A stretch of DNA of 35,856 nucleotides, taken from IMG/VR virus record IMGVR_UViG_3300000101_000015, positions 1-35,856 of that record; one strand, given 5' to 3'. This document shows positions 19,321 to 35,856 of this stretch, in pieces (the first letter of the stretch is position 1; every line of letters begins with the position of its first letter). Below the pieces are notes generated by a model. It was not told where the DNA came from, did no database searches, and was given only the letters and a program-made list of their open reading frames with translations. The stretch comes from a virus. The position numbers and the translations under genes were made by a program.

Positions 19321-22300
19321 ATGGGAAATAAAAAGAACATAGGCTTACCGGGAGGACCAAATGAAATAATTGTTGATCCAAAAGGGCAATGGAATCATCC
19401 AGGAAAAAATACACGGATTGAAAGTAATCACATTACTATGCAAGATGTAGAATACCCAGTGTGGGCCCAACCTAATGTTGGTCCGGGTACAATGATGATG
19501 CCAGGAGATGAAGACTATATTTTTAAAAATGCAGAATATGTAGATGAGTATCCTATAGCACAAAGAGGTTTAGAGTTAAATAAAAAATATATTGATTCTA
19601 CATTCAATGCTAATATGGATAAACGTTGGGTACAAAGACTTTATGAAAAAAATCCAGAGTTTTATTTAGAAGGACAAACAGATCCTTCAACACATTTTAT
19701 GGAGTCTGGAGACAGTATGGTTTACCCTTTAGTTGTTGAAGGGGATGATGGCAATTTAATGTTTGATAGACAAAAAGGTAGATCCCAAGGAATTAAGTTT
19801 CCTACTGATGAGATAGCCCAATGGTTTGCAGAAAATTATAAAGATGGAACAGATGTATTAAAAGAAAAGCAACGTGGTGGTGGGCTACTAGACAAAACAA
19901 TGAAGTGTAATAACTGTAGTTGGGAATGGAAAGCAGCAGATGGTGGAGCTGATGTATCTACATGTCATAAGTGTGGTAGCAAAGCATTACCAAAAGCTCA
20001 AGAGGGCTTAGGTGTAGGTGTACCAGATCCAACAAAGCAAATTGAATTCATGACTAACTGGGCAAATTCACCAATGCATAATCAAATGTTAGACGCTAGT
20101 TCCAGCTCAGAGAAATTTAAAAATAAAGTTAAGATTGCAAGAAGAAATTTTGATAATGTAAATATAGTTGATGAGGAAGTTGATGGATTTCTGGGGCAAT
20201 ATATTAATGGACAAGTAACAATGAACCCTTCAGCAATGGAAGAGTATGTAATAGGTAATGGTTACGATAGTGTTCTTGTTCATGAATTGTCACATTTTAC
20301 TGATGATGGTAATCCTGATAACGAGGGTTATTTTAATGCAAGTAATATACCTTTATCTGACCGTAGACTAATTAAAAAATATGGTAAAGAAGGAAAAAAA
20401 CGTTTAAAGAAAGAGGAAAAAGAACTTAATGAATTATTAATATCTGAAGGACTTAAACCTAATGATAAGGAAGTTATTGAAGATAGACTCAAACGTGTCA
20501 AATACTTAAATAGAGATACAGAAACAAGATCAAGAATAAATGCTACAAGATATTTTTATGAATTAGATGATGAATTTGGTAGAGAAAGTGATAGTAATAT
20601 AGACAAGAATCTTCCTAGTATATTTAATTCTCCAGTAACCCCAGAGATGATTGAGGTAATGAAAAAAAGTGGGCAGTATCAACAACTACAAGAAATTTAT
20701 ACAGATGATCAGATACTAGAAATGTTTAATACTATATCAGACACAAACAATGTTGATACTGCTATAAATACAGTCAATGCAAAGTATGGGATAGAGGTAT
20801 TACCCAATGCACAAAAAGGAGCTTGGATTAAAACAGGGTTGAAAGCACTTTCAAAACAGTTTCCATCTTTAGCAAAATTTATAGATGATGCAGCAGTACC
20901 AGCTGTTAAAAATGCAACAAATAAAACTGATGAAGTTGTAGAAGAAATGGTTGAAGTTGTAACAGGAGATGGCTCTATAAGAAAAGTTCCTAAAAGTTTA
21001 GCAGTAAGAGTAAACAGAGTTGAAGATGCAAACGTTACCAATAACTCATTTAAAAACTATGAAGATGGAAATTGGTTTGCAGATAAAATAACTCCTCTTT
21101 ACACAAAGCATACTAAAAACGTAATGGATCCCACCAATGCATCACTTTATCCAGAAGACCCAAGAAGATTGTTTACAGCATATTTTGATCCAGAAGATAT
21201 TAAAAAGTTTGGTTTAAAAGATGGGCTGGGTACAGAAAGAGCAAGAAGTTTAAGTGGAGGACCTGGAACACAAGTTCATCCTAATGAATATGTTGTACCT
21301 CCAGCACTTGTAGAGTTTATGAGAAAGACAGGCACAGGTCCGGGATTTAAAACTCAGATATTAAATCAACAAAATACTTTTGATAACATATTTGATTTTT
21401 ACAAAAAACACGGTGGTCAAGTAACTATTGAGGATTATATCAATCAAACTGATCTACCTCAAGCTCAACGTGGTTGGTTCAAAAGCTTAATGAAGCAAGG
21501 TGCTAAGAAGTTAGATGATATACTAGGAGCAGTTAAAAAGGTGGATAATTTTGAATTTAAAAGTTTACCAACTATTGAGAAAAAACAATTTATGAAAGTT
21601 GTAGATGGTGAGTTTGATTCAATTGATTATGATCATCTCATACCTACAACACAAGAAATTTCAGATCTAGCAACTAAAACTAGAAGCAGATTAATGTCTG
21701 ACAAGTTTATAAAAAATAACATGGAAGCTACTGGACGTAGCAAAGATGAAGTAGTTAGTTATGTTGATGATTATATAAAAGAGTTTGAAAATTCTACTCT
21801 TGCTTTTGATAAAACACCAGATGGAGCTGCTGGTTTATATACCCGTGGTAAAATTACTATAGACCCAAGAAACCCTCACCTTACCAAAGAAAATGTATTA
21901 GGAACACTTGAGCATGAAATAGAGCACATGTTTAGTAATGTAAGTCAACAAGGAAGTGATTTATATAGACACCCAAAATTTAAACTTGTTGATAGAACAG
22001 GAATGCCTGACGAAAATCTTGTACAAAACATGGGTCAAGCATTTGAGCAACAAGTAAGGTTTAGAAAAGCACTTGGTTGGCTAGAAAAAAATGCAGGATT
22101 AAAGGTAGGAGATAATGTAACAGATGAACAAGTTGAGGCACTTACAGATGCAATAGCTAATTGGTCAAAAGAACAAGGGAAAGACTTCAGAGGTTCAGGT
22201 GCAAATTTTGATGTTCAACATTTATTTTCAAGTTTAGATGCAGAACAATTTTTAAAACCAGGTCAGTATCTAATGCCTAATGCCCCAAGAACTGCAAATT

Positions 22301-23379
22301 TAAAAAACAGTAATGTTAGACAAGCAATAAAAGATATTTTAAATAAAACATATACTGCCGCAGCTGTAGGAGGATTAGGAGCAGCTTCTCAAATGGGACC
22401 TAAACAAGAAGATGGTCAGTATACATATGGAGGTAGTCCTTCTAAAGCTCAAGTGGGTCTTGAGACAGGTGACTATATAGTTGAGGATGGTGATACATTT
22501 TATGGAATTGCAAATAAAAATAATATATCTTGGAAAGACTTAATTTCTTCTAATCCATCTGTAGATATAAATAGATTATCTTTAGGAGATACATTACAGG
22601 TTCCTGGATACAAAGCACCTGTAGCACCAGAGGAAATAGCAGTTAAACAAAATACATATAATGCATATGCCCCTACAAATGAATTAGCAACTCAAAGAAG
22701 AGCTGATTTAGATTCTGCTTTAAATACAGTGGTAGGTGCTTCAGACAATAATATGAATCTACGCACTCTTTTATTTATGACAGGTGCAATGGAAAACAAC
22801 TGGGGTAATGCTCCTGATGCATATACTGATAAGAAAACAGGCAAGCCAAGAACTTATACTAGAGGAATGATGTCTATTGATGACAACGCATATAAAGATT
22901 TATTTGAACCACGTGGAAACAATGGTAGGTTTGTTGATAATCAAAAGAAAATGTTTGAATGGTTAAAAGGGATAGGTCTTGACTATACTCAAATGAATGA
23001 TATGTTGAGGTCTAATGATCCATTAGCAGGAATGGCAGCTGCAAGAATGCAATACGCTAGAAGACCTGAACCATTACCAGATGGTAATGATCCAGACGCA
23101 GTATATGAATACTATATGAAACATTATAATAGAACAGGTGCAGATCATAAAGAAAGATTTATGGGCAACTGGAATGAGTTTATAAAAAAGAAAGAAAAGA
23201 AAACAGGTGGTGAGACTATATATAATGAATATAAAAAATATGTTGACAGTGGATTTACAGGTTCAAAAAAGTCACAAGAAAATTATGACAAATTAAATAG
23301 AGTGCATTATAGGGATGCAAAAAGTATGGGTATGTCACCCGCTAATTATATAATGACTAATATTTTAGGGTCTTCTTAA
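19321..23379 (+). CDS. Modular virion polyprotein: zinc ribbon, two HExxH metallopeptidases, LysM, lysozyme-like domain
   Basis: The protein has 1352 residues. Modules in order: an N-terminal segment ending YPIAQRG (77-83); a segment with a four-Cys zinc ribbon (Cys196, 199, 215, 218) ending LPKAQEG (223-229); a metallopeptidase-like segment with His321-Glu-Leu-Ser-His325, ending LPNAQKG (494-500); a segment starting with an amphipathic helix and ending LPQAQRG (712-718); another helix plus a second metallopeptidase-like segment with His865-Glu-Ile-Glu-His869; SKAQVG (1041-1046); a LysM domain (about 1050-1097); and a lysozyme-like domain with candidate catalytic Glu1158 (TGAMENN) and a typical C-terminal pattern RRPEPLP (1247-1253). 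A virion-carried enzyme set for crossing the cell wall is likely. The A-Q-x-G boundaries suggest proteolytic maturation. Third zinc ligands were not identified. Confidence 0.9.
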   Translation: MGNKKNIGLPGGPNEIIVDPKGQWNHPGKNTRIESNHITMQDVEYPVWAQPNVGPGTMMMPGDEDYIFKNAEYVDEYPIAQRGLELNKKYIDSTFNANMDKRWVQRLYEKNPEFYLEGQTDPSTHFMESGDSMVYPLVVEGDDGNLMFDRQKGRSQGIKFPTDEIAQWFAENYKDGTDVLKEKQRGGGLLDKTMKCNNCSWEWKAADGGADVSTCHKCGSKALPKAQEGLGVGVPDPTKQIEFMTNWANSPMHNQMLDASSSSEKFKNKVKIARRNFDNVNIVDEEVDGFLGQYINGQVTMNPSAMEEYVIGNGYDSVLVHELSHFTDDGNPDNEGYFNASNIPLSDRRLIKKYGKEGKKRLKKEEKELNELLISEGLKPNDKEVIEDRLKRVKYLNRDTETRSRINATRYFYELDDEFGRESDSNIDKNLPSIFNSPVTPEMIEVMKKSGQYQQLQEIYTDDQILEMFNTISDTNNVDTAINTVNAKYGIEVLPNAQKGAWIKTGLKALSKQFPSLAKFIDDAAVPAVKNATNKTDEVVEEMVEVVTGDGSIRKVPKSLAVRVNRVEDANVTNNSFKNYEDGNWFADKITPLYTKHTKNVMDPTNASLYPEDPRRLFTAYFDPEDIKKFGLKDGLGTERARSLSGGPGTQVHPNEYVVPPALVEFMRKTGTGPGFKTQILNQQNTFDNIFDFYKKHGGQVTIEDYINQTDLPQAQRGWFKSLMKQGAKKLDDILGAVKKVDNFEFKSLPTIEKKQFMKVVDGEFDSIDYDHLIPTTQEISDLATKTRSRLMSDKFIKNNMEATGRSKDEVVSYVDDYIKEFENSTLAFDKTPDGAAGLYTRGKITIDPRNPHLTKENVLGTLEHEIEHMFSNVSQQGSDLYRHPKFKLVDRTGMPDENLVQNMGQAFEQQVRFRKALGWLEKNAGLKVGDNVTDEQVEALTDAIANWSKEQGKDFRGSGANFDVQHLFSSLDAEQFLKPGQYLMPNAPRTANLKNSNVRQAIKDILNKTYTAAAVGGLGAASQMGPKQEDGQYTYGGSPSKAQVGLETGDYIVEDGDTFYGIANKNNISWKDLISSNPSVDINRLSLGDTLQVPGYKAPVAPEEIAVKQNTYNAYAPTNELATQRRADLDSALNTVVGASDNNMNLRTLLFMTGAMENNWGNAPDAYTDKKTGKPRTYTRGMMSIDDNAYKDLFEPRGNNGRFVDNQKKMFEWLKGIGLDYTQMNDMLRSNDPLAGMAAARMQYARRPEPLPDGNDPDAVYEYYMKHYNRTGADHKERFMGNWNEFIKKKEKKTGGETIYNEYKKYVDSGFTGSKKSQENYDKLNRVHYRDAKSMGMSPANYIMTNILGSS

Positions 23380-23433: not shown

Positions 23434-24765
23434 ATGAGTTTGAAAGTAAACAAAATAAGTGTAAAGCAAGAGGGAGGATCAATGATACCTGAACAACCTG
23501 GGATGCAACAGCAACCACAAGTTGATCCGCAGGTTGCACAATTGACCCAAGTGATTACTGAATCCGTACAAGGTGGACAAGATCCCCATGACGTTGTTGC
23601 TGGTTTGATTCAAAATGAAGTTGATGGTCAATTAATTGCTCAAGCATTAATGGCGGCAGGAATGGAAGAAGCAGCTGTAGTTCAGCTGTTTGAAGCGGTT
23701 CAACAAAGTATGGAACCAAAAGAATCAAGCCCTGACCAAGTTACACAAAATCCCCAGTTACTTTCTAGGAATGCAGACTTACAAGCTCAACAACAAGAGC
23801 AGGGTCAACCACAACAGCAAATGATGGGAGCACAGGAAGGTGGTGAAAATTTAAATTCAGTTCAAGAATTACCAGAATTTCCAGAGTGGCGTGTAGAAAA
23901 TAATGAAGGACCTGTGACACCAGAAATGAAAGAATATCTTGAAGCTCTTGAATTTAATAAAAAAGCAAGACAAGCTATAGGTACTAATGATAAAGAATTA
24001 CTAGCTTCATTCACATCAAGAAATAACCCAAATATACCTTATGGTAATAATGAGTTAGCAAGAGATTTTTCTGAATTACAAAAACTAAGACAAGCAGCAG
24101 GTTTAGGTTTAAAAGAAGAAGCTTCTATTCTTTTGCCTCATGTTGGTCAACAAATAAGAGGTGGCTTTAATGAAATCTTAGGAACCAACTTTAAAGAAGG
24201 TGGTGAGTTTGAACCACACTTTATGTACAAAGGTGAAAGAAAGATAAGAGCTAAAGATATGGCTACCCATCTTAGATTAAAAGAAAGAGGGTATACACAC
24301 GATGTACCTAAAGCACAAACAGGGGGTGGTGAAGATAAAGGTGGTACTAGTCTAGGAGATATTGCTCTTAGTGCAGCAGGAACTGTTTATAATGGTATTA
24401 ATAATATGCCACGTGGTTTAAATCCATTTTCAAAGTTAGATGACTTCCTGCAGATTTCAGGTGTACCAGCTAATTTAGTTAGAGAAAGTATAGAAGGTTT
24501 AAGTGATAAAGGAGACGGTAGTTTTGATTGGGGAAATATTTTACCTGATTTAGCCGGTACATCAATTTTAGATGATACACCAGATCAAATACCAGTTTCA
24601 CAAACATTAGGTATAGAAGATTGGAAAGCAGCTATGGCTGTAGATATGGGTTTAGATCCTACAACATACATGGGTGCTGGTATTGTAAAAAATTTAATAA
24701 AAAAAGGTGGTAAAGCATTTTTAAAAAGATTCCCTAAAATTGCAAAAAATCTTTTTACCTACTAA
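23434..24765 (+). CDS. Gln-rich virion cargo protein, N-terminal part of a probably split gene
   Basis: The frame encodes 443 residues. A short leader ends in KQEGG (11-15). It is followed by Gln-rich linkers (MQQQPQVDPQVAQ, QAQQQEQGQPQQQ) flanking a small helical domain (about 30-90). AQEGG occurs at 133-137, KEGGE at 254-258 and PKAQTGGG at 292-299. The C-terminus is Lys-rich and amphipathic (KNLIKKGGKAFLKRFPKIAK). The stop TAA 24763-24765 interrupts what looks like one longer protein, because the overlapping +1 frame runs on for 492 residues without an early ATG. No enzyme motif is seen. It is probably an internal virion or ejected protein, inferred from neighbours and the shared Gly-Gly motifs. 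The start sits behind the ATAATATT leader. Confidence 0.82.
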   Translation: MSLKVNKISVKQEGGSMIPEQPGMQQQPQVDPQVAQLTQVITESVQGGQDPHDVVAGLIQNEVDGQLIAQALMAAGMEEAAVVQLFEAVQQSMEPKESSPDQVTQNPQLLSRNADLQAQQQEQGQPQQQMMGAQEGGENLNSVQELPEFPEWRVENNEGPVTPEMKEYLEALEFNKKARQAIGTNDKELLASFTSRNNPNIPYGNNELARDFSELQKLRQAAGLGLKEEASILLPHVGQQIRGGFNEILGTNFKEGGEFEPHFMYKGERKIRAKDMATHLRLKERGYTHDVPKAQTGGGEDKGGTSLGDIALSAAGTVYNGINNMPRGLNPFSKLDDFLQISGVPANLVRESIEGLSDKGDGSFDWGNILPDLAGTSILDDTPDQIPVSQTLGIEDWKAAMAVDMGLDPTTYMGAGIVKNLIKKGGKAFLKRFPKIAKNLFTY

Positions 24766-26218
24766 TGAAACAGGTGGTACACCACCAGCAGACGGGCAAT
24801 ACTTAAATAATGTATTTATACCAGATGAGGATAAAGTAAATCAAGATGCATTAGCTAGTAATTTAAAAAGACCTGCTGAATGGTATAGTGGTATTGATGC
24901 ATCTTTAGGTATAATGCCTATGCAGCCGCCACCAACTGTCAATTTTTTACAAGACACTCTTCAAACAGGAGCAAGGTTGATTGGTAAAGGTAAAGCTGTT
25001 TTTAGTGGAGATTATAGTGAACAAAATGAAGCATGGAAAGAATCTTTGCCTGATTACTATAATAAAAAAATAAATCTAGATGGAGTATACACTGATGAAA
25101 ATAAAGAAAATGTTAAAGATTGGGCTCAATCACAGTATGAGGATTGGAAAGCAGAAACAGAAGCAAACCAGGCAGTATCTGATAAAGAGTTAGAAGGAGT
25201 AGTTAAAACAAAACCTGCAACATTTGAAGATTATTTAAATGAAACTAAGCAAGAAGTTACAGGTAAATCTCCAGAAGAAGTTGCAGCCATGCAGGATATT
25301 TATAGAAGTATGTCTGGTGCAAGAACTAAAAAATATGGTGGTGGTAATTTAGATAAAGCTAAATATGGAAAAGATGATTTCTTTAAGAGATTATTTCCTA
25401 AAGGTTTTGGTACACCAGGTTTTAACCCTGATAAGGATAGTGTAGTAGAAGATGAAGAAGAGGTGGAAACAACAGCAGATAAGTTTGCTAAGATACAAAT
25501 GCCTAGTATGGACATAACCAACCCTATAGATGGATCACTAAATGCAATAGCTGAAAACCCAGCTTTTAAAAGATTTACAGGAATATCTGATATGCTTGTA
25601 GATGGTGCCGGATATGTTAATAGATACTTTGATAGAAAGAACTTTAAAGAGCAGTTTGATAATATGGAAGCAATGTCTATTGCTGATTTAACATATGGTA
25701 CAAAAATGTCTGACCCTATGTCAGAAGGATATCAAGATATAAATTCAGGTATAATGCAAGGTGAAGCTGAAAAAACTCCTGGGTATTATATGAACTTTGC
25801 AGGTAGCCCTAATAGTGATGTTGCACAAGAAGGTTTAGAAATATTACCTAAAGACTTTAGAGAAAGTACAGTAGGTCAAAAACTTAATAATGTAAGTCAA
25901 CCTTCTAAAGAATCTATATTACAGTATTGGGATCAAGCTCAAGGAATTGATAGTATTTCTAGTGGTCTATCATTCTTTAATAATATTGAAAAGCAGGACA
26001 TACAGAACCTTCTGCAAGAAGCTGATATAGATAAATCTGAAGTAAGAGATTTTTTATATAACCAGCCTTTTTATAAAGATACAAGCAGTCTAGGAAGAAT
26101 GGGTATTAGAACAGCCTTGAGTAGTAAGGGTTTAAAACAAGGTGGAGAAGTAATAGATTTATCACAAGATATGATTGCACAATTAATTGCAGCTGGTGCT
26201 GACATAGAAATAATATAA
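24740..26218 (+). CDS. Virion cargo protein, C-terminal part of a probably split gene
   Basis: The 492-residue frame is in +1 relative to the gene at 23434. The marked start is TTG, and the first in-frame ATG is more than 50 codons in, at GIMPMQPPPT, which argues for translation from the upstream frame or a sequence error. The frame is solid: helical, acidic segments (KESLPDYYNKKINLDGVYTD, DWAQSQYEDWKAETEANQAV), YGGGN near residue 200, and RFTGISDMLVDGAGYVNRYF. The end has LKQGG at 465-469 followed by VIDLSQDMIAQLIAAGADIE, a C-terminal style I recall from crAss-like virion proteins. Probably one product of about 930 residues with the upstream frame. No catalytic motif is recognised. Confidence 0.78.
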   Translation: MQKIFLPTNETGGTPPADGQYLNNVFIPDEDKVNQDALASNLKRPAEWYSGIDASLGIMPMQPPPTVNFLQDTLQTGARLIGKGKAVFSGDYSEQNEAWKESLPDYYNKKINLDGVYTDENKENVKDWAQSQYEDWKAETEANQAVSDKELEGVVKTKPATFEDYLNETKQEVTGKSPEEVAAMQDIYRSMSGARTKKYGGGNLDKAKYGKDDFFKRLFPKGFGTPGFNPDKDSVVEDEEEVETTADKFAKIQMPSMDITNPIDGSLNAIAENPAFKRFTGISDMLVDGAGYVNRYFDRKNFKEQFDNMEAMSIADLTYGTKMSDPMSEGYQDINSGIMQGEAEKTPGYYMNFAGSPNSDVAQEGLEILPKDFRESTVGQKLNNVSQPSKESILQYWDQAQGIDSISSGLSFFNNIEKQDIQNLLQEADIDKSEVRDFLYNQPFYKDTSSLGRMGIRTALSSKGLKQGGEVIDLSQDMIAQLIAAGADIEII

Positions 26219-26220
26219 TT

Positions 26221-29160
26221 ATGGCTAAAGTAAGAATAAATAAATTACCACAAGGTTTTGAATTAGTTGATGGTAAGATAAAGAAGAAAGCTTTAAAAAG
26301 AGACGGTGGAATGATAACTGGTGACCAGGCTAATTATGGCTTAGTTACAACTCCTCAAGAGTTTTACGGACAGACAAATTTTAACAATGACAAAGATCAG
26401 TCTGTTAGATACAGCTTATCTAGTGTTGCTAGAGAAGATGCTAACGTAGAAGCAGAAGGTGGAGAAACTGTATTAACTGATCTTAGTGGTGATGGTCAAT
26501 TTGGATTATACGGAATAACAGGACCAAGACACTCTAGTGGTGGTGTTCCAATGTTTTTACCAGAGCAGTCTTTTATTTATTCAGATACTTCATCAATGAA
26601 GATGGATAAAAGTGAACTTGCTGAGTTTGGAATAGAATCAAGAAAGAAAAAAACACCAGCACAAGTATCCAGAAATTATCAACTCAATCCTTTTTACGCA
26701 GAAATAAATAGTCAATATGCAGATGACATATCAACTAGAAGTGCAGAGCTAATGCTCAAAAAGAATATGAGTAACTTATCTAAGTTAGCATTTGGACAAG
26801 AAATAAAAAAGAATTTTGAAGACGGTGTCCCTCTAGCAGCTTACCCCTATCTTACAGAGCAGGGTATAGATCCAATAGATTTTGCTGCAACTGTTGAAGA
26901 GCAAACTAGACAACAAAAAGAACTAGAGCTTATTGCTCAAATGCCACCTCAACAACAACAACAAATGCTTCAAATGCAAGCAATGATGAATAGTGTTGAT
27001 CAGCCACAGCAACAGCAACAGGGGATAGGAGATCCTTCTGCAGAAAATGCAGGAATGCAAGATCCTAGTAACTTAACTCCTGACCAACTTGCAGCTAGTG
27101 ATCAACAGTTAATGGCAACATTGCAAAAAGGTGGAGAAAAAGCTTCAGAATACTTTAATACACAAGGTGTACCTCAAGTAACTAACGAACCTGGCGCAGG
27201 GGGTCTATCATGGCCTTCTGCTATAGAAGATGCTATTTATAATGCAGATACTAAATTATGGGAATTTAATGGTGGTGGTGATTCTTTAAGTACTGATGAT
27301 CTTATAGCATTGGGTATGTCCTATGAACAAGGTATAATACCAGAAGATAGTCCTTATATGGCTTCAGAAACAGAAACTGCAGTAGAAACAGAAACTGCAG
27401 TTGAGGCACCTAATGGTGAAGTTGATGAAGTAACAGCTACAGTTGCTGTATCTACGGATGGTGTAACACTTGATAGTTCTACTGATCCTAATCCTACTTT
27501 AGAAATGCCTGCAGGGTTTCCAACAAATCATCCTGACTATGCTAAATTTAAAGCTGCGGTAGATAGTGGTAACTATACTATAATTGCAACAAGAGATGAA
27601 GTAAACGGAGGAACTAAATATGAAGCTGTAGAGATAATTAAACCTAATAACTTTGAAGATTTTGTTGAGGAAGAAGTAGAGCAGTTTAAAGTTTATGGAT
27701 CTACTGATGATATGATTACTGTAATCAGTCCAGAAGATTCAAAGATTAATGAAATATATGAAGGTGCTGATGCCAATAATGTTAGAATAAGAAAGGGTAT
27801 AGCATCAGGTCAAAAGAGACCAAGAGTTCAAGGACAGGTTCCTGAAGGTATTTCTTTTGGTGGTGATTTTTCTACTCCAGCAGCAGAAAAAGATTTTAAT
27901 ATACGTTATGGTGATGCTATAAAAGAAAGAATGCCTGAGTTTAATTATCAAATGAAATCAGGTGTTTGGAATGGAGACAAACCTATAGATGCTCAAGCTA
28001 AAAAATATTATAACCAGTGGATAAAAGCACAGGGTTTAATGCAAGATATTGAAAATGAGAATCATGCTAAAGCTTTTGGGCCTAATGCAAAAAGTAAACC
28101 TAGGATTTTATTTCCATGTAGTAATGACAGACCCGGTACATGTGTTGATGGTAAATTAGGTTTTGATACATTTAATAAAGGAAGAACATACATAAGGACA
28201 CAGGACCAAGATAGATTTGAAGGTTTTGTAGAAGATCCAAGAAAAACTCCTGAACCAGGGCCTATTCCTGGTGACCCGGTAGATCAACCAGATTGGTGGT
28301 GGCAAGATTTAAATAACATTGCTACTCAAAACTCTTTGGAGAATCCTTTGTTTATGCCTAATGTTCCAAAGATTCCACAAGAAAGAATTAATTATGTACT
28401 TGATGATTGGACTGGTAAAGCCAATATGATAAATGCAAACTTTAATGCTTATGCTAAAAATCTTAGAGCATTTGGAAAAGGTAAAGTTGCAGGGACAACT
28501 GCATATGGTAAAGCTGCTGAACAAATAGGACAAGCTGTAGGTAATACAACACAAGCTAATATCAAAACAATGAATTCTGTTGCAATACCACAAGCTCAAT
28601 TAAATTTAAGAACGGGTGTTGCTAATGCCAAAGCATTTCAAGATGAGTATGATGGAAGCATAAGAGCACTACAAAGATATGTTGATTTTGAAAATTGGAA
28701 TAAAAAGGAAACTAATAAGTTATATAATCAAGCAATAACTAATAGAGCAAATACATATAACATGAATATGCTTAAAGATGTTATGCAGACTAGTCCTGAC
28801 CTAGGTGGTATACAAACTAAAAAGTGGGACAAACCTTTAGACCCAAGTAAAGGGAAGGTTGACCCTAGTACAGCTAGATATGATGAAATGTTAGAATGGG
28901 AAGAAAAGATTAAAAAACAGAATCCTAAAATGGATGCTGAGGAAAGAAGAAAAAGATTAGAATATATTATGCAAGGTAAATTGACCAGCAATAATAGTAG
29001 ATCTAATAAGGATGGTTATGATGATATAAATAATAATGACGATCCTGCAAATGATTTTGACATACCATCTGTATCAGTACCAAATACTCAAGTAAGTAAA
29101 AAAGGAGGGGGAATGAAACGTTTTGCATACCCTTTCTATTCAGGAAAGATGGGTATATAA
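26221..29160 (+). CDS. Large virion cargo protein with GGETVL...GPRHSSGG block
   Basis: This 979-residue protein starts MAKVRINKLPQGFEL and has KRDGG at 26-30. Residues about 78-125 contain GGETVLTDLSGDGQFGLYG and GPRHSSGGVPMFLP followed by SFIYSDT, a block I recognise from internal virion proteins of crAss-like and marine Bacteroidota phages, function unknown. The Asp87/Asp91 loop could bind a metal. Gln-rich linkers (QQQQQMLQMQ, QPQQQQQG) and LQKGGE follow, then an acidic repeat region and a helical C-terminal third (TTAYGKAAEQIGQAVGNTTQ). The end is KKGGG (960-964) plus 15 residues. The protein is not membrane-like and has no recognised active site. It begins two bases after the upstream stop, so it belongs to the same cargo operon. 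Confidence 0.88.
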   Translation: MAKVRINKLPQGFELVDGKIKKKALKRDGGMITGDQANYGLVTTPQEFYGQTNFNNDKDQSVRYSLSSVAREDANVEAEGGETVLTDLSGDGQFGLYGITGPRHSSGGVPMFLPEQSFIYSDTSSMKMDKSELAEFGIESRKKKTPAQVSRNYQLNPFYAEINSQYADDISTRSAELMLKKNMSNLSKLAFGQEIKKNFEDGVPLAAYPYLTEQGIDPIDFAATVEEQTRQQKELELIAQMPPQQQQQMLQMQAMMNSVDQPQQQQQGIGDPSAENAGMQDPSNLTPDQLAASDQQLMATLQKGGEKASEYFNTQGVPQVTNEPGAGGLSWPSAIEDAIYNADTKLWEFNGGGDSLSTDDLIALGMSYEQGIIPEDSPYMASETETAVETETAVEAPNGEVDEVTATVAVSTDGVTLDSSTDPNPTLEMPAGFPTNHPDYAKFKAAVDSGNYTIIATRDEVNGGTKYEAVEIIKPNNFEDFVEEEVEQFKVYGSTDDMITVISPEDSKINEIYEGADANNVRIRKGIASGQKRPRVQGQVPEGISFGGDFSTPAAEKDFNIRYGDAIKERMPEFNYQMKSGVWNGDKPIDAQAKKYYNQWIKAQGLMQDIENENHAKAFGPNAKSKPRILFPCSNDRPGTCVDGKLGFDTFNKGRTYIRTQDQDRFEGFVEDPRKTPEPGPIPGDPVDQPDWWWQDLNNIATQNSLENPLFMPNVPKIPQERINYVLDDWTGKANMINANFNAYAKNLRAFGKGKVAGTTAYGKAAEQIGQAVGNTTQANIKTMNSVAIPQAQLNLRTGVANAKAFQDEYDGSIRALQRYVDFENWNKKETNKLYNQAITNRANTYNMNMLKDVMQTSPDLGGIQTKKWDKPLDPSKGKVDPSTARYDEMLEWEEKIKKQNPKMDAEERRKRLEYIMQGKLTSNNSRSNKDGYDDINNNDDPANDFDIPSVSVPNTQVSKKGGGMKRFAYPFYSGKMGI
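27367..27402 (+). repeat. Two 18-bp tandem repeats coding ETETAV
   Basis: Two copies of GAAACAGAAACTGCAGTw encode ETETAV-ETETAV in an acidic linker of the cargo protein at 26221. The copies differ only at the last base, unlike the strongly recoded fibre repeats, so this looks like a recent slippage duplication. Confidence 0.85.
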
Positions 29161-29165
29161 ACATT

Positions 29166-29196
29166 AAAGGTTTATTTAATTAAATAGGTAAACTTT
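29166..29196 (+). repeat. Imperfect inverted repeat centred on TATTTAATTAAATA
   Basis: A perfect 14-base palindrome (29173-29186) is flanked by AAAGGTTTA on the left and TAAACTTT on the right, which pair except for one base. It lies in the 59-base gap before the ATG at 29220. It may be a weak terminator hairpin or an operator. No T-run follows, so termination is uncertain. TAAATTTG at 29208-29215 resembles a -7 box but is very close to the start. Confidence 0.4.
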
Positions 29197-29219
29197 ATAA
29201 ATTATAGTAAATTTGAATT

Positions 29220-32200
29220 ATGGCTACATTTTTAAAAGGAGAGAAGAATTTTTACCCGGAGGTTAAGGCTTTTACACCAGATTATAAGTTTTTATCTGCA
29301 ACATTAGATGCAAGAGAAAGCAAGTATATGTCAGGGTGGGAAGCTACTAATGATGTATATAGTAGAGTATACTCTGATTTGAGTAGACAAGATAATAAAG
29401 AAATCCAATCACAGTTTATAGATAGCTTAACACCTAAGCTAGAAAAAATATCAGGTCTTGATTATTCTGTTGCAAGAAATGTAGATGCGGCCAAAGGTGT
29501 ATTTGCTCCTTTTTTTGAAGATGATTTAATTGTAAAAGATATTGTGTATACATCTACATATAAAGATCAATTAAAATTTGCAACACAACTGGAGAATGCA
29601 GCAGATCCAGAAGCACGTGAACTTTTTAACCCAATTGCAATAGAGGCAATGCAGTTTAGACTAAAAGAATTTCAAGAAGCTGGTAGAAATCAAGCATTAA
29701 ATATGAGGCTGCCAAAGTTTGTTGAAGATGCAGACTTAACTCAATATGCACAAACATATTTAAAAGAAAGAGGTTTAACAGCTGTACAAGATACATTTCA
29801 AGGAGGTGGTCCAGGTAAAGATGGAATTTATGGTACTGATGATGACAAAGCACCTAACACACATTTTATAATCAAGAAAAAAAACGGAGACCTGATTGAA
29901 GGTAGAGCACGTAATATGATTATGAATGACCTTTTAGATGATCCAAGAGTAAGACAATGGTATGATACAAGAGCATATGTAGAGAGTATGAGGTTTGCTG
30001 AAGGAGCAATGAAAGATGGTGCGGTAGAATCTAGGGCTCAAGGTGTAAGCATATGGGCTAAACAACAACTAGAAGTCTTACAGGATATTAATGGCAAGCA
30101 AACAGCAAGTACAGGTAATGAGATAAATAAAAGAAAATCAGCAAATGTTTCATGGGAATCTTATAAAGAATCAAAAGGACTTTTACCAGCTGAAAAGAAA
30201 CTGGTTGAAGAAAATAAGAGTACTATAGAACAGCTCCAAGATGATTTAGAAAGAAGACTTGGTACTAAAGAGTTTATAGAGATGCCAGACAATAGTGATG
30301 AAGCATCTGTTTCAAAAGCTTATGCAATACTTGCTAATCAATATATGATTCAAGACATGAATAGAGGAGCCTTTCAGTATGCCTATACTGATACGGAAGA
30401 AACTATGAGAGAGAATAAGTTTAAGCTTGAAGAGGTTAAACAAGGTTATGAGTTAAGTAAAATTAGATTGAAGGCATACTTTACTTCTAAACAATCAACG
30501 CAAGACTTTGATGAAGCTACTCTGTTGGCTGATCAAGATGGTAATATAAAAGCATCACTAGCTAATCAAGACTTTCAAAATAAATTAAAGTTACAACTTG
30601 CAGAAGATGAAAGCAAAGGAAAAGAACTAACAAAAAATAGACAGAGTTCAACATATGATCCAGGTAGACCGGGTTCTCAGTTATTTTCAATAAATGAAGA
30701 AGGAGAATTTAAGCATGATGGTTTTATGAACTCAAACACTAATGCAATTGCTAAAGATGAAGAAGCTTTTATAGTAGAGAAAGCAGATCTTATAAAAGAA
30801 ATGCTTGCATTAAGATATCCAGGTCAAGAAAAATACTCTATTAATATAGGTACAGAAGATGAGCCTAATATGGTAGAAAAAAACCTTGATGAGATTGGAA
30901 TATTACTTAATGAAAAAGTAAAAGTCTATAATAAAGATACGCAAACTGAAGAAGATTCAGATAAATTTGCAAACATAGGATTGTTAGAAACACTATTTAA
31001 AGACAACGCAAATTTCTTTGGTACTGAAAATGCAAAAAATGTATATAAAGAACACCCATCTTGGGTACTTGGTGATGACGGTGTTAGAAATTCAGGTGAT
31101 GAAGCTAATACTTCTTACAATAAAATGGTAGCAAGGTTATATGGTGTAGATCCACAGAACCCTGACCAACAAGGTATTATAACAAGAGAAAGTACTTTTA
31201 ATAAAATGGTTAAAAGAAATTCAGAGACTTGGTATAATGCTGCTGATAATGCTAACTCAGCATTAACTGCTGAAAAGGGGGGTAATGTGGCTTACACAGA
31301 AATGGTTAACGCTGGCTATCCTGTACCATATGTAATAGAAAATGGTGTAAAACAATTCATGAATAAGGCTGATTACGTTAAGAAGTTTACAGAGATGGCT
31401 ATGTCAGGATCAATTCAAAACTTTGATGTAACTGGTCTTGGTGGAGATGAAAATTCTGGTGATTCTAATCCTGATTGGATGGATAATCAATTAAAAATGA
31501 TACCCGGTTTGACAACTCCTATTCTTGTGAACTTGCCAGACATGGATGCTATTCAAGGTAAAGCAAGTTTTATGTATGAAACTTTAAAGCGATCAGCTAA
31601 CATGTATGTTGGGAATACAGATGTTCAAACTTACTTAGGTTTAAATAGAGAAACTAGTATACCGGGAAGCAACATTGCATTTACAACTACAGAAAGAGTT
31701 ACTAGTACAGCTAATCCATTACCAGGAACAGATGCATATAGAATCCAAATGCAAGTTCTTAATCAATACAAGCAAAGTAGTAAAGATCCTAATCAAATAG
31801 TTACAGTAATACAGATACCAGAAACTGTGCAAGATATAAAGTATATAGATGTTACTAAACCAGATTTAACTAGTGTGTCATCAAGAGCAGCAAACATGTT
31901 GTTTCAAGAAGCAATTGTAAAAGGTAATGAAGCTGCTAGCTTTTTTGAGATTGAGTACTTTCAGAACTATGGTGAAGAACAGTTTGATGACATGGGTGAA
32001 TTAATATCTGTTCCTAAAGCAGGGTATGTTATTAAAAACTTTGATCCTGCATTTATTAAAAAATTAGTAGAAGATGATAACACTCTAACTGATGACGCAA
32101 TAAACGCTGCAGCTAAAAGAGGTGTAATGTTTGTGTTTAAAAGAGATAGTGATATTAGCCCTGGTAGTTTTGAAAAATCATCAAAAGGTTCCTATATCAA

Positions 32201-32648
32201 AAAAGAAATTATGCTTTCTGATAATAATGTATTTAAATATACAAGCCCAGGAGATTTATTTTCTCCAGGTGCAGCAACTTTTCAACAAGTAAGTGAAGGC
32301 CATATAAATATTAGTCTTACAAGAAATGTTTACAATCCTTTGAGTACAGATCCTAGTAACCAATTTACAGTTGTAAATGATTCCCCAATAGAAATCAGGT
32401 ATGATGCAGGTGAAAATTATTCACTTGATCTTACAAAAAAATATGAACAAGTTCAAAACATACTTAAAGCAACTGAAAGAAATAACAATGCTGTTATGTT
32501 TCAGATGAGAGCTAAAAGTTTAACTGAGGAAAAATGGAAAACAGAATGGAAAGTAAAAAATCCTGGACTAAAGCCTGATGCTGCAGATGTAGCATATAAG
32601 ACAGCAATGGAACAAGTAAATAGTATTGAACAACTGCAAACTAAGTAA
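29220..32648 (+). CDS. Large helical virion cargo / ejection protein
   Basis: The 1142-residue protein starts MATFLKGEKNFYPEVKAFTP and is mostly charged helix. Examples are VYSDLSRQDNKEIQSQFIDS, IAIEAMQFRLKEFQEAGRNQ and a possible coiled coil near 326-350 (VEENKSTIEQLQDDLERRLG). Residues about 196-210 contain a compact Asp/Gly loop (GPGKDGIYGTDDDK) that could bind calcium. No signal peptide, membrane segment or catalytic motif is visible. Size, solubility and position among giant late genes fit the internal cargo proteins of crAss-like virions that are thought to be ejected into the host; this role is inferred. Six bases separate its stop from the next start. Confidence 0.87.
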   Translation: MATFLKGEKNFYPEVKAFTPDYKFLSATLDARESKYMSGWEATNDVYSRVYSDLSRQDNKEIQSQFIDSLTPKLEKISGLDYSVARNVDAAKGVFAPFFEDDLIVKDIVYTSTYKDQLKFATQLENAADPEARELFNPIAIEAMQFRLKEFQEAGRNQALNMRLPKFVEDADLTQYAQTYLKERGLTAVQDTFQGGGPGKDGIYGTDDDKAPNTHFIIKKKNGDLIEGRARNMIMNDLLDDPRVRQWYDTRAYVESMRFAEGAMKDGAVESRAQGVSIWAKQQLEVLQDINGKQTASTGNEINKRKSANVSWESYKESKGLLPAEKKLVEENKSTIEQLQDDLERRLGTKEFIEMPDNSDEASVSKAYAILANQYMIQDMNRGAFQYAYTDTEETMRENKFKLEEVKQGYELSKIRLKAYFTSKQSTQDFDEATLLADQDGNIKASLANQDFQNKLKLQLAEDESKGKELTKNRQSSTYDPGRPGSQLFSINEEGEFKHDGFMNSNTNAIAKDEEAFIVEKADLIKEMLALRYPGQEKYSINIGTEDEPNMVEKNLDEIGILLNEKVKVYNKDTQTEEDSDKFANIGLLETLFKDNANFFGTENAKNVYKEHPSWVLGDDGVRNSGDEANTSYNKMVARLYGVDPQNPDQQGIITRESTFNKMVKRNSETWYNAADNANSALTAEKGGNVAYTEMVNAGYPVPYVIENGVKQFMNKADYVKKFTEMAMSGSIQNFDVTGLGGDENSGDSNPDWMDNQLKMIPGLTTPILVNLPDMDAIQGKASFMYETLKRSANMYVGNTDVQTYLGLNRETSIPGSNIAFTTTERVTSTANPLPGTDAYRIQMQVLNQYKQSSKDPNQIVTVIQIPETVQDIKYIDVTKPDLTSVSSRAANMLFQEAIVKGNEAASFFEIEYFQNYGEEQFDDMGELISVPKAGYVIKNFDPAFIKKLVEDDNTLTDDAINAAAKRGVMFVFKRDSDISPGSFEKSSKGSYIKKEIMLSDNNVFKYTSPGDLFSPGAATFQQVSEGHINISLTRNVYNPLSTDPSNQFTVVNDSPIEIRYDAGENYSLDLTKKYEQVQNILKATERNNNAVMFQMRAKSLTEEKWKTEWKVKNPGLKPDAADVAYKTAMEQVNSIEQLQTK

Positions 32649-32654
32649 ATCAAC

Positions 32655-35600
32655 ATGGCTGAACTAAAGAATGAAGAGTTAAGTAACTCTACACCAGAAC
32701 AAGATTTAAGTTTAAAGGATCAGATTATTGGAGAATCATCTTCAATGAATCCAATTGATTCTTCTAAGCCTTACATGAATATTCAAGATATGCTTTCTGA
32801 TGATCCTAATCTTGTACCAGATCAATATAGAAATACAGTATCAGAATATAGAACGGCTATGGATCAATTTGGACCAGAGGCTATTGCTAATTCATACATG
32901 ACTGATTTTTATCCTGACTCTCCAGGATTAGCTACAGGAACATATAACCCAATGCCTGAAAAAAGTTCTTATGAGAATGAAATTTCAGCACTGAGAGATT
33001 CTTTAAGAGCACCATTAGAAAAAGAAGAGGGAACAATTTCCGCTCCAATCTGGGATAATGTTAGAGCATTAAACTTTGATAGAGCATATGAAAGCAATAT
33101 GTTTAGTGATATAGGTTTTACACCTTATGCTGACATGGATCAAACATATAATAGAAACCATAGTGCATGGGATGGTTGGTCTAGAGGATGGGATCAATTT
33201 AAAAATCTTGCTGGAACTGGTATGGTTTCTAGTTACAGATCTTTATATGATTTAATTGATGGTGATGATTATTTAAGCTCCCCAGATTTAGACTCCGCTT
33301 TTGAAATGGAGGATGCAATGAGAATAGGTGGAAGTACTGATGGAAGCTTTATGGGTAAGTTGGGTAACATAGGATTAAACTTTGGTTACACAGCTGGTAT
33401 TGTAGCTTCCGTTGCTGTAGAAGAAGCAGTAGCTGCGGTAGCTTCTGCAGCAATGACTATCCCTTCAGGTGGTGCAAGTTGGTCTGTATTTGGTGCAACA
33501 ACTTTAAGAAACTTAGGCCGTATAGGAAATCTTTTTGATTTTAAAAGAGCAGCATCAGCATCAGCTGCATTGTTAAAAAGTTTGAATAAAATAGAATCTT
33601 CAAGAGATTTTTATAGAGCATCTAAAGGAGCACTAAATGCTGGAGGTAAACTTTTTGTTCCTGAGATTACTCATGCAATTAAAAATTGGAAGACTACAGG
33701 TAATACTGCACAGAACTTATTAAATATAGGAAAGAACAGACATATCTTTGGTGCATTTTATAGAGATGTTAGAATGATTAATGCATCAATGTCTGAATCA
33801 AAGATGGAAGCCGGTATGGTTTATAACCGTGTTGAGCAAGATGCAATCAATTATTTTAATTATAAAAATGGTGTAGGTAAAGGGGTTACTAATGAGCAAG
33901 CTCAACAAGCAAGAGTGAAAGCAGCAGAAGCAGCATTCAGTGCTCAGATGAGAAACTTTTTAATCATACATGCTTCTAACAGAATTGTACTTAGAAATGC
34001 ATTTGGAGGATGGCAAAGAAAAATAGGAGAGGCAAGCAAAAGAGTTTTAGCTACTGGTGTTAAAGGACAAGCTACCAAAGGATCAAAATGGCTATTGTCA
34101 AGAATGAGACAAGAGTATAAAATATCTAAAGCCCTTAATGGTTGGAAAGCAGCACCTAAAGTAATGGGTTCTCAATTACTCAGATATGGTGCAGCTAATT
34201 TTGCTGAAGGTATACAAGAGGTTTCACAAGAAGCTATATCATCTGCAACAGTAGGTTACTATAGTTCTTTGTTGAGAGATCCACTAGCTGGAGCTCCAGG
34301 AACTTATGGTGCTTATGGTACACAAGCTGCTGGTAATTTATTTTCAGCAGAAGGAGCAGAGGTTTTTGCAAGTGGTTTTTTAATGGGTGGTCTGGCAGGA
34401 CCATATCAACAAGTGCTTTTCCAAGGAATGCCTGCATTATACAGAAGAGGTCAATCTGCTTATAATAAAAAGTATAAGATGCAAGAGGATGGTAAATACT
34501 CCAACCCTTACAAAGAATATAATGATGCACGTGAGAAAGCTGTTGATGATATTGTTTCTCAAGTTAATAAGTTTGCTGATGCAACTTATGATGGTAAAAA
34601 TCCTTTACAAGGTATACTTTCACCAGAGCAATTAAAGCTATCAATGCAAAAACAAATTGCAGGAGAAATAAATTTGAACATTGCTGTGGGTGATAGAAAA
34701 TCATATTTTGATAATAGAAATATGTCTGAGTTCAATAACCTTTACACTGCATATCAAAATGGTTCAATAAAATTTCAAAAAGATGACTTGAAAGCATTGT
34801 CTAAATTAAATGATAAAGACTTAGAAGCAGCATTTGGAGATACTAAAAGAACAGCAAAATCATTAAGAAAAAAAATAGGAAGACAACTAAATCTTATAGA
34901 TGAGTATGGTAAAAACTATGCTGGTAAGTTAGAAGGTATATTTCCTAGTAACAGATATGATTTGTCTCAGTTAAAAAGAGGTACTGTAGAATATGAAAAA
35001 ATGGCTTTTAGAAAGCAAGCATTTGAACACTCAAAAATGCTTTACATATTCACTAATGAATCTTTCAAAGATGCTGTTAAGAGACAAGCACAAATAGAAC
35101 AAGAACTAGAATCTGAACCATTGTTTGGTAATCAATCATTTACTGATATAAGATTGCTGTATACAAACGATACTATACAAGAAGAGCTTTCTGTTTTACA
35201 AGATGAGATTAATGCTTCAGAAAACTTAACTCCTAAAGAGAAAGAGTTAACTGCAAAAAGAAAAAAGAAAAGAGCAGCATTAGAAAAGTACTCTAAAATT
35301 TTTAATGACCCAAAGAACCAAACTAAAAAAGGATACTTTGCTAAAAATAAAGTAAATAGCTCAGGGCTAAAGGGGGCTTTTAAAGAATACATACAAATGC
35401 TTGCAGGTAGTAATAATGATTTTATTAACTACAGCAATATAGATAACGCATTAACATTGCTTACAGATCATGTAGCCTTACAAGAAGATGCATCTGCATT
35501 TAGTAAGTCAGTGGATTGGTTAGCTAACCCAGAAGGTCAGAAGCAAATAGAAGATAGAACAACTGAGTATTTAGAGTTCCTATACAGTAACAGAAAAGAA

Positions 35601-35856
35601 ATATATGCAAGACAGACTAAAAATTATTTAGATGTTATTCAGAAAAATGATTTAATAAATGCATTTTCAGAAAAAGGTATATTGGTAGAAGAAGAATTTC
35701 TTAAAAGTTTCCTAGAAGATGACATTACTATAGAGGAGTTTACTGATGGTATAAGACAAGGTAAGTTTATAGAAGATGGTAGACGCTTAAATATGAACAT
35801 AGAGGCGGATGCAGATAAACTAGCTTATGTTATTGCTGTAATTAATACTTATGCTG
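32655..35856 (+). CDS. Giant virion protein with hydrophobic segments, 3' partial
   Basis: An open frame from ATG 32655 runs without a stop to the window end, giving at least 1067 residues. The start MAELKNEELSNSTPEQDLSL follows a six-base gap after the upstream stop. Residues about 237-285 form an Ala/Gly/Val-rich hydrophobic stretch (LNFGYTAGIVASVAVEEAVA, AAVASAAMTIPSGGASW). Residues about 512-582 are a second Gly/Ala amphipathic stretch (RYGAANFAEGIQEVSQEAIS, GTQAAGNLFSAEGAEVFASG). The rest is charged helix, including a Lys-rich segment (KEKELTAKRKKKRAALEKYS). Helical proteins with such insertable stretches are typical of ejection proteins that line a channel through the envelope. No polymerase or hydrolase motif appears in the visible part. 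The C-terminus lies beyond the window. Confidence 0.88.
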   Translation, partial: MAELKNEELSNSTPEQDLSLKDQIIGESSSMNPIDSSKPYMNIQDMLSDDPNLVPDQYRNTVSEYRTAMDQFGPEAIANSYMTDFYPDSPGLATGTYNPMPEKSSYENEISALRDSLRAPLEKEEGTISAPIWDNVRALNFDRAYESNMFSDIGFTPYADMDQTYNRNHSAWDGWSRGWDQFKNLAGTGMVSSYRSLYDLIDGDDYLSSPDLDSAFEMEDAMRIGGSTDGSFMGKLGNIGLNFGYTAGIVASVAVEEAVAAVASAAMTIPSGGASWSVFGATTLRNLGRIGNLFDFKRAASASAALLKSLNKIESSRDFYRASKGALNAGGKLFVPEITHAIKNWKTTGNTAQNLLNIGKNRHIFGAFYRDVRMINASMSESKMEAGMVYNRVEQDAINYFNYKNGVGKGVTNEQAQQARVKAAEAAFSAQMRNFLIIHASNRIVLRNAFGGWQRKIGEASKRVLATGVKGQATKGSKWLLSRMRQEYKISKALNGWKAAPKVMGSQLLRYGAANFAEGIQEVSQEAISSATVGYYSSLLRDPLAGAPGTYGAYGTQAAGNLFSAEGAEVFASGFLMGGLAGPYQQVLFQGMPALYRRGQSAYNKKYKMQEDGKYSNPYKEYNDAREKAVDDIVSQVNKFADATYDGKNPLQGILSPEQLKLSMQKQIAGEINLNIAVGDRKSYFDNRNMSEFNNLYTAYQNGSIKFQKDDLKALSKLNDKDLEAAFGDTKRTAKSLRKKIGRQLNLIDEYGKNYAGKLEGIFPSNRYDLSQLKRGTVEYEKMAFRKQAFEHSKMLYIFTNESFKDAVKRQAQIEQELESEPLFGNQSFTDIRLLYTNDTIQEELSVLQDEINASENLTPKEKELTAKRKKKRAALEKYSKIFNDPKNQTKKGYFAKNKVNSSGLKGAFKEYIQMLAGSNNDFINYSNIDNALTLLTDHVALQEDASAFSKSVDWLANPEGQKQIEDRTTEYLEFLYSNRKEIYARQTKNYLDVIQKNDLINAFSEKGILVEEEFLKSFLEDDITIEEFTDGIRQGKFIEDGRRLNMNIEADADKLAYVIAVINTYA

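Follow-up and report, generated by a model that had tools for sequence, protein, structure and literature searches.

The AQxG motif marks module borders and cargo front ends across a sizeable uncultured group of crAss-like phages

Why does a single phage protein carry the same short motif, Ala-Gln-x-Gly (AQxG), five times along its chain? The protein, 1352 residues long, is encoded in a stretch of 35,856 nucleotides (the window) belonging to a 61.3-kb virus record which may itself be a fragment. The first-pass annotation had proposed that the motifs lie between domains and are cut by a phage-encoded or host maturation protease, which would convert one precursor into separate virion enzymes, or else that they are linkers left from domain fusion. 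All five are present where it had placed them, starting at residues 80, 226, 497, 715 and 1043, and Leu-Pro precedes three of them as described (LP-x-AQ-x-G) while the first reads YP-I-AQ-R-G.

The gene immediately upstream is a crAss-like muzzle homologue: its tblastn matches are virion structural or muzzle proteins of phages phi17:2, Fpv1, csAssE-Sib and Lbo-JY46. The 1352-aa protein therefore opens the cargo cassette. The order muzzle, cargo genes, giant RNA-polymerase-like genes is that of the same four phages. By these homologues and this gene order, the window phage appears to belong to Crassvirales or to a close relative (of the four, phi17:2 and Fpv1 are themselves listed outside Crassvirales). 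Leptolyngbya phage Lbo-JY46, recorded from a cyanobacterium, has the same muzzle-cargo cassette (L110 19602-29543), including a protein starting MKIRIIGLPKAQIG; the hosts of the other cultured relatives are Bacteroidota, far from a cyanobacterium. The next cargo protein is a single 945-aa ORF in two relatives (L003 and L008). Its division in the window may be genuine, or may stem from a frameshift or from faulty assembly. The overlap at 24740-24765 adjoins A- and T-rich runs. The 4873-aa giant (window 32655-35855 continued in L001 2-12277) carries DFDID and HEAFH motifs and is followed without a gap by a 1921-aa ORF. The giants are putatively RNA-polymerase-like, judging from gene order and from the DFDID of the window's own copy.

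Table 1. Features of the window discussed in the text (window coordinates)
Feature	Position	Strand	Remarks
Muzzle-type virion protein, 2149 aa	12870..19319	+	upstream of cargo gene; tblastn
Probable polyvalent cargo protein, 1352 aa	19321..23379	+	first gene downstream of muzzle gene
N-terminal module, residues 1-81	19321..19563	+	GQWxHPG...ITM...YPV...EYPxAQ; internal in other phages
AQRG motif 1, residues 80-83	19558..19569	+	
Module 1, residues 82-227	19564..20001	+	CxxC...CxxC Zn-ribbon-like stretch at its end
AQEG motif 2, residues 226-229	19996..20007	+	pLDDT <50
Module 2, residues 228-498	20002..20814	+	HELSH zincin-type domain; many different orders in relatives
AQKG motif 3, residues 497-500	20809..20820	+	pLDDT about 50 or lower
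Module 3, residues 499-716	20815..21468	+	unknown domain
AQRG motif 4, residues 715-718	21463..21474	+	
Module 4, residues 717-1044	21469..22452	+	HEIEH zincin-type domain
AQVG motif 5, residues 1043-1046	22447..22458	+	
Module 5, residues 1045-1352	22453..23376	+	LysM (1052-1095) and lysozyme-like C-terminal domain
Next cargo protein	23434..26218	+	two ORFs: 23434-24765, 24740-26218
AQxG, residue 133 of 23434 ORF	23830-23841		
AQxG, residue 294 of 23434 ORF	24313-24324		
AQxG, residue 362 of 24740 ORF	25823-25834		
Further cargo-cassette genes	26221..35855	+	979 aa, 1142 aa, 4873-aa giant running beyond window

The 1352-aa protein is built of a short N-terminal module and five larger ones (Table 1). 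Module 1 has homologues in relatives but gave nothing above cut-off in a Pfam scan. Module 2 shows a weak match to Peptidase_M91 (E 0.006, under the cut-off) and, like module 4, carries Glu/Arg motifs downstream of its HExxH. A homologue of module 3, 40% identical and without AQxG, lies inside a 771-aa protein of L010 (5770-8085). Module 5 matches LysM (E 6.8e-9), over which endolysin and transglycosylase PHROGs also match, and phrog_3108 spans residues 1136-1290. In two relatives (L005 and L008) an ART domain follows the AQRG corresponding to that ahead of module 4; the L005 domain matches ART-PolyVal (PF18760) with 56.1 bits against a cut-off of 31.2, and on this match the family can be grouped with the polyvalent proteins. 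These are multidomain proteins of phages and conjugative elements, deployed with the invading DNA and rich in zincin-like MPTase and ART domains, for which processing has been proposed (Iyer et al. 2017, PMC5512222). Chains of this family do combine several such catalogued enzymatic domains, of MPTase type in the window protein and with ART in the L005 orthologue. The protein itself gave no tblastn match in a cultured-phage collection. It is probably a polyvalent cargo protein that a crAss-like phage carries inside its virion and injects.

Five AQxG in this protein contrast with 0.27 expected from its composition, and in 20,000 shuffles the count never exceeded four. Three more occur in the two following ORFs and none in any other protein of the window, including the window copies of the 979-aa, 1142-aa and giant cargo genes. 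The same restriction to the cassette is observed in 11 related genomes, where this protein and the next one contain 56 AQxG against 8.0 expected whereas all remaining proteins contain 41 against 47.9, the level of chance. Shuffling and the comparison of cassette with remainder thus reject chance or composition as the cause. AQ is the most over-represented of the 400 dipeptides preceding x-G (234 versus 69 expected), although AQxG counts include homologous sites and reflect conservation as well as recurrence. Removal of sites with similar flanks left 138, and the consensus is [IL]-P-K-A-Q-x-G-x-x-hydrophobic: ahead of the motif Pro occurs at 8.6 and Lys at 5.8 times background, and hydrophobic residues are preferred before the Pro and three positions after the Gly. 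Within the motif the codons used for A, Q and G match the background, indicating selection on the protein rather than on the DNA; a DNA-level recombination site was rejected on the same ground. At the end of the HELSH module A-[QKR]-x-G is kept in all 14 of the homologues listed, and degenerate copies also exist (AK, AR, FQDAG). AQxG behaves as a short linear motif that is selected at the level of the protein; it marks the borders of modules and, in several other cargo proteins, a leader at the N-terminus.

Besides AQxG, the cargo proteins (L030-L109) are enriched in another type of junction, [MFY]-[KQEA]-x-G-G, which dominates in Cellulophaga phage phi17:2 (L111 28737-31424). In polyproteins of L004, L031, L032, L041 and L046 the string GGWLDK[YF] recurs: it serves as a linker within chains, and several chains end exactly with it.

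Placement between domains is supported by comparison with relatives. Of the ends of homology blocks, 20% lie no more than 8 residues from an AQxG, versus 4.7% of random positions; the effect is weaker for block starts (9.5% versus 4.6%). Two relatives, G001 and G005, share most of the protein and differ after the same AQRG, where one has an HEIEH module and the other an ART-type module. An overly strict paired-motif pattern search of G000 found no match. At 29 points where genes separate in one phage are fused in another, AQxG is present in 17%, the random figure being 5% (p about 0.014). For AQxG/AKxG or GG the values are 38% and 22% (p about 0.03); GG alone was not significant. This support is modest since the start of an alignment is not exactly placed and some fusion events are not independent of one another.

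The predicted structure agrees for two of the sites. In an AlphaFold model of residues 200-730 the HELSH module is well folded (pLDDT mostly 74-94) and adjoins the low-confidence sites 226 and 497 (Table 1), whereas site 715 begins a helix (pLDDT 60-70). The model of residues 690-1352, which includes sites 715 and 1043, is poor (mean pLDDT 43.6). Foldseek returned no significant match with the 200-730 model; its top, non-significant matches include deuterolysin, PprI and AsaP1, all of them zinc peptidase folds. The first-pass annotation had added that AQxG falling at random inside folded domains of homologues would count against it. In dozens of related phages the motifs are instead non-random, conserved and located at module borders. 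Such recurrence of a specific motif at module borders is what would be expected of a processed polyprotein.

AQxG is not confined to internal borders. Its density is four times higher in the first 20 residues than further in (2.07 versus 0.50 per 1000), and that of [LI]PxAQxG about 20 times higher (1.35 versus 0.06). It occurs at residues 8-23 of other cargo proteins and of the RNA-polymerase-like giants in G010, G011, G014, G015 and G017; a leader in Lbo-JY46 reads LPKAQIG near residue 11. With only some 8-13 residues of leader, no domain precedes the motif, so AQxG cannot be an interdomain linker there. These extreme N-terminal copies and the specific flank preferences weaken, without removing, the earlier suggestion of linkers left from domain fusion.

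We tentatively favour proteolytic processing as the function of AQxG. The chain would be cut at or near the Gln, so that a single translation product would yield separate enzymes and short leaders would be removed. The motif's non-random distribution, conservation, generality and position at module borders speak for this part of the initial proposal; its phage-encoded protease was not found. S78, ClpP and M3 families were absent from 20-22 related phage records, as was S77, the search for which had no positive control, and no protease was recognisable by eye among the proteins beside the capsid gene of G010, where portal and capsid are separated by an acidic protein resembling a scaffold. A substrate of a T4- or phiKZ-type prohead protease was rejected as an identity for the motif, which has Gln in place of Glu (the residue after which the T4 enzyme cuts), in addition to the lack of an S77 match in the search without positive control. 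The protease is thus probably no recognisable phage prohead protease, and a host endopeptidase would be the most economical candidate, as for protein gp7 of phage P22. The enzyme acting there, OpdA, is one that we take to belong to the M3 peptidase family; M3 peptidases occur in a Bacteroides control genome. Against processing, the homologous junctions of phi14:2 and crAss001 do not carry AQxG, and some copies of the motif are degenerate. The MS/MS-based annotations of phi14:2 g070 and phi4:1 gp41 make no note of processing.

Other readings would leave the chain uncut. AQxG might be a targeting or docking tag, carried by each module and each cargo protein, that attaches them to some part of the head or tail (scaffold, portal or barrel) for ordered packing or threading. 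Its N-terminal position on several unrelated cargo proteins and its confinement to the cassette would fit, as would the observations that segments of the crAss001 cargo protein gp45 bind portal and barrel (PMC10172136) and that T4 propeptides direct proteins into the prohead core (PMC10052503). However, no binding partner is known and five copies at the module borders of one chain would be redundant for simple targeting; we rate this reading as somewhat unlikely. We consider it less likely still that the motif is a selected but inert flexible hinge, spacing modules, aiding tail threading and inherited by module duplication. Sites 226 and 497 are predicted to be poorly ordered, the end of the HELSH module takes the motif along with it, and other Gly-Gly hinges occur at similar places, all of which is consistent with a hinge, whereas an invariant Ala-Gln with preferred Pro-Lys ahead is atypical of one. 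Moreover, the extreme N-terminal leaders link nothing, and outside the cassette the motif stays at chance level despite other multidomain giants.

If the chain is cut, its own zincin modules could be responsible. The window protein has two HExxH modules, and Iyer et al. propose that zincin-like MPTases process polyvalent proteins (PMC5512222). However, zincin modules vary between phages while the motif is constant, and the cassette of a 108-kb record (G015) contains six AQxG and no HExxH, the only one listed for that record being in a 1165-aa protein outside the cassette. Self-cutting is therefore unlikely as a general rule, and we regard it as very improbable.

Throughout this sizeable uncultured group of crAss-like phages, AQxG lies where exchangeable enzyme modules meet and near the start of other cargo proteins. 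Searching for it is a simple means of locating module borders within giant cargo proteins, most of which lack annotation, and a common motif supplies exact candidate cut sites that can be tested in cultivable relatives (phi4:1, phi17:2 and Lbo-JY46). A broader picture is possible, if rather doubtful: a large group of dsDNA phages would make its injected enzymes as polyproteins, cut at [IL]PKAQ-x-G by a protease other than a prohead protease, perhaps the host's, and shuffling of modules between cut sites would generate new effectors.

The junction motif is real and lies in a known kind of protein; no earlier description of it was found in the literature searched. A text search of the polyvalent-protein study (PMC5512222) found no junction motif, whereas in the present family a single motif returns again and again, between modules as well as at the N-termini of cargo. 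Prohead proteases of the T4 and phiKZ/SPN3US types strip N-terminal propeptides, some of 20-24 residues, from head and ejected proteins, SPN3US gp245 cutting after A-X-E (PMC10052503). S77 and S78 gave no match in relatives, the S77 search having no positive control. Host OpdA removes 20 residues from the P22 ejection protein gp7 at SYPE/KGG. The likeness lies in an injected protein losing a short N-terminal leader at a Pro-acidic/Lys-Gly-Gly site; gp7 differs in being cut once, in not being a polyprotein and in having Glu rather than Gln before the cut. Its site SYPE/KGGKG resembles YPxAQ/KG, an analogy that proves nothing here, and no sequence homology is claimed. Among cultured phages the counterpart is phi17:2 gp042, of 739 aa, in which a phage-lysozyme domain is accompanied by two zincin-type domains; the same junction is kept between these two as YAQAGG, at residue 519. 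The phi17:2 protein gp041 has VPNFQAGG and similar sequences. The gp042 orthologue phi4:1 gp41 is a virion protein by MS/MS, and phi14:2 g070, which lacks AQxG, was likewise detected in virions by MS/MS. These Cellulophaga counterparts have fewer modules than the window protein and mostly [FYL]-[QK]-x-G-G junctions, but all three carry zincin modules and are encoded beside the muzzle gene, as in the window.
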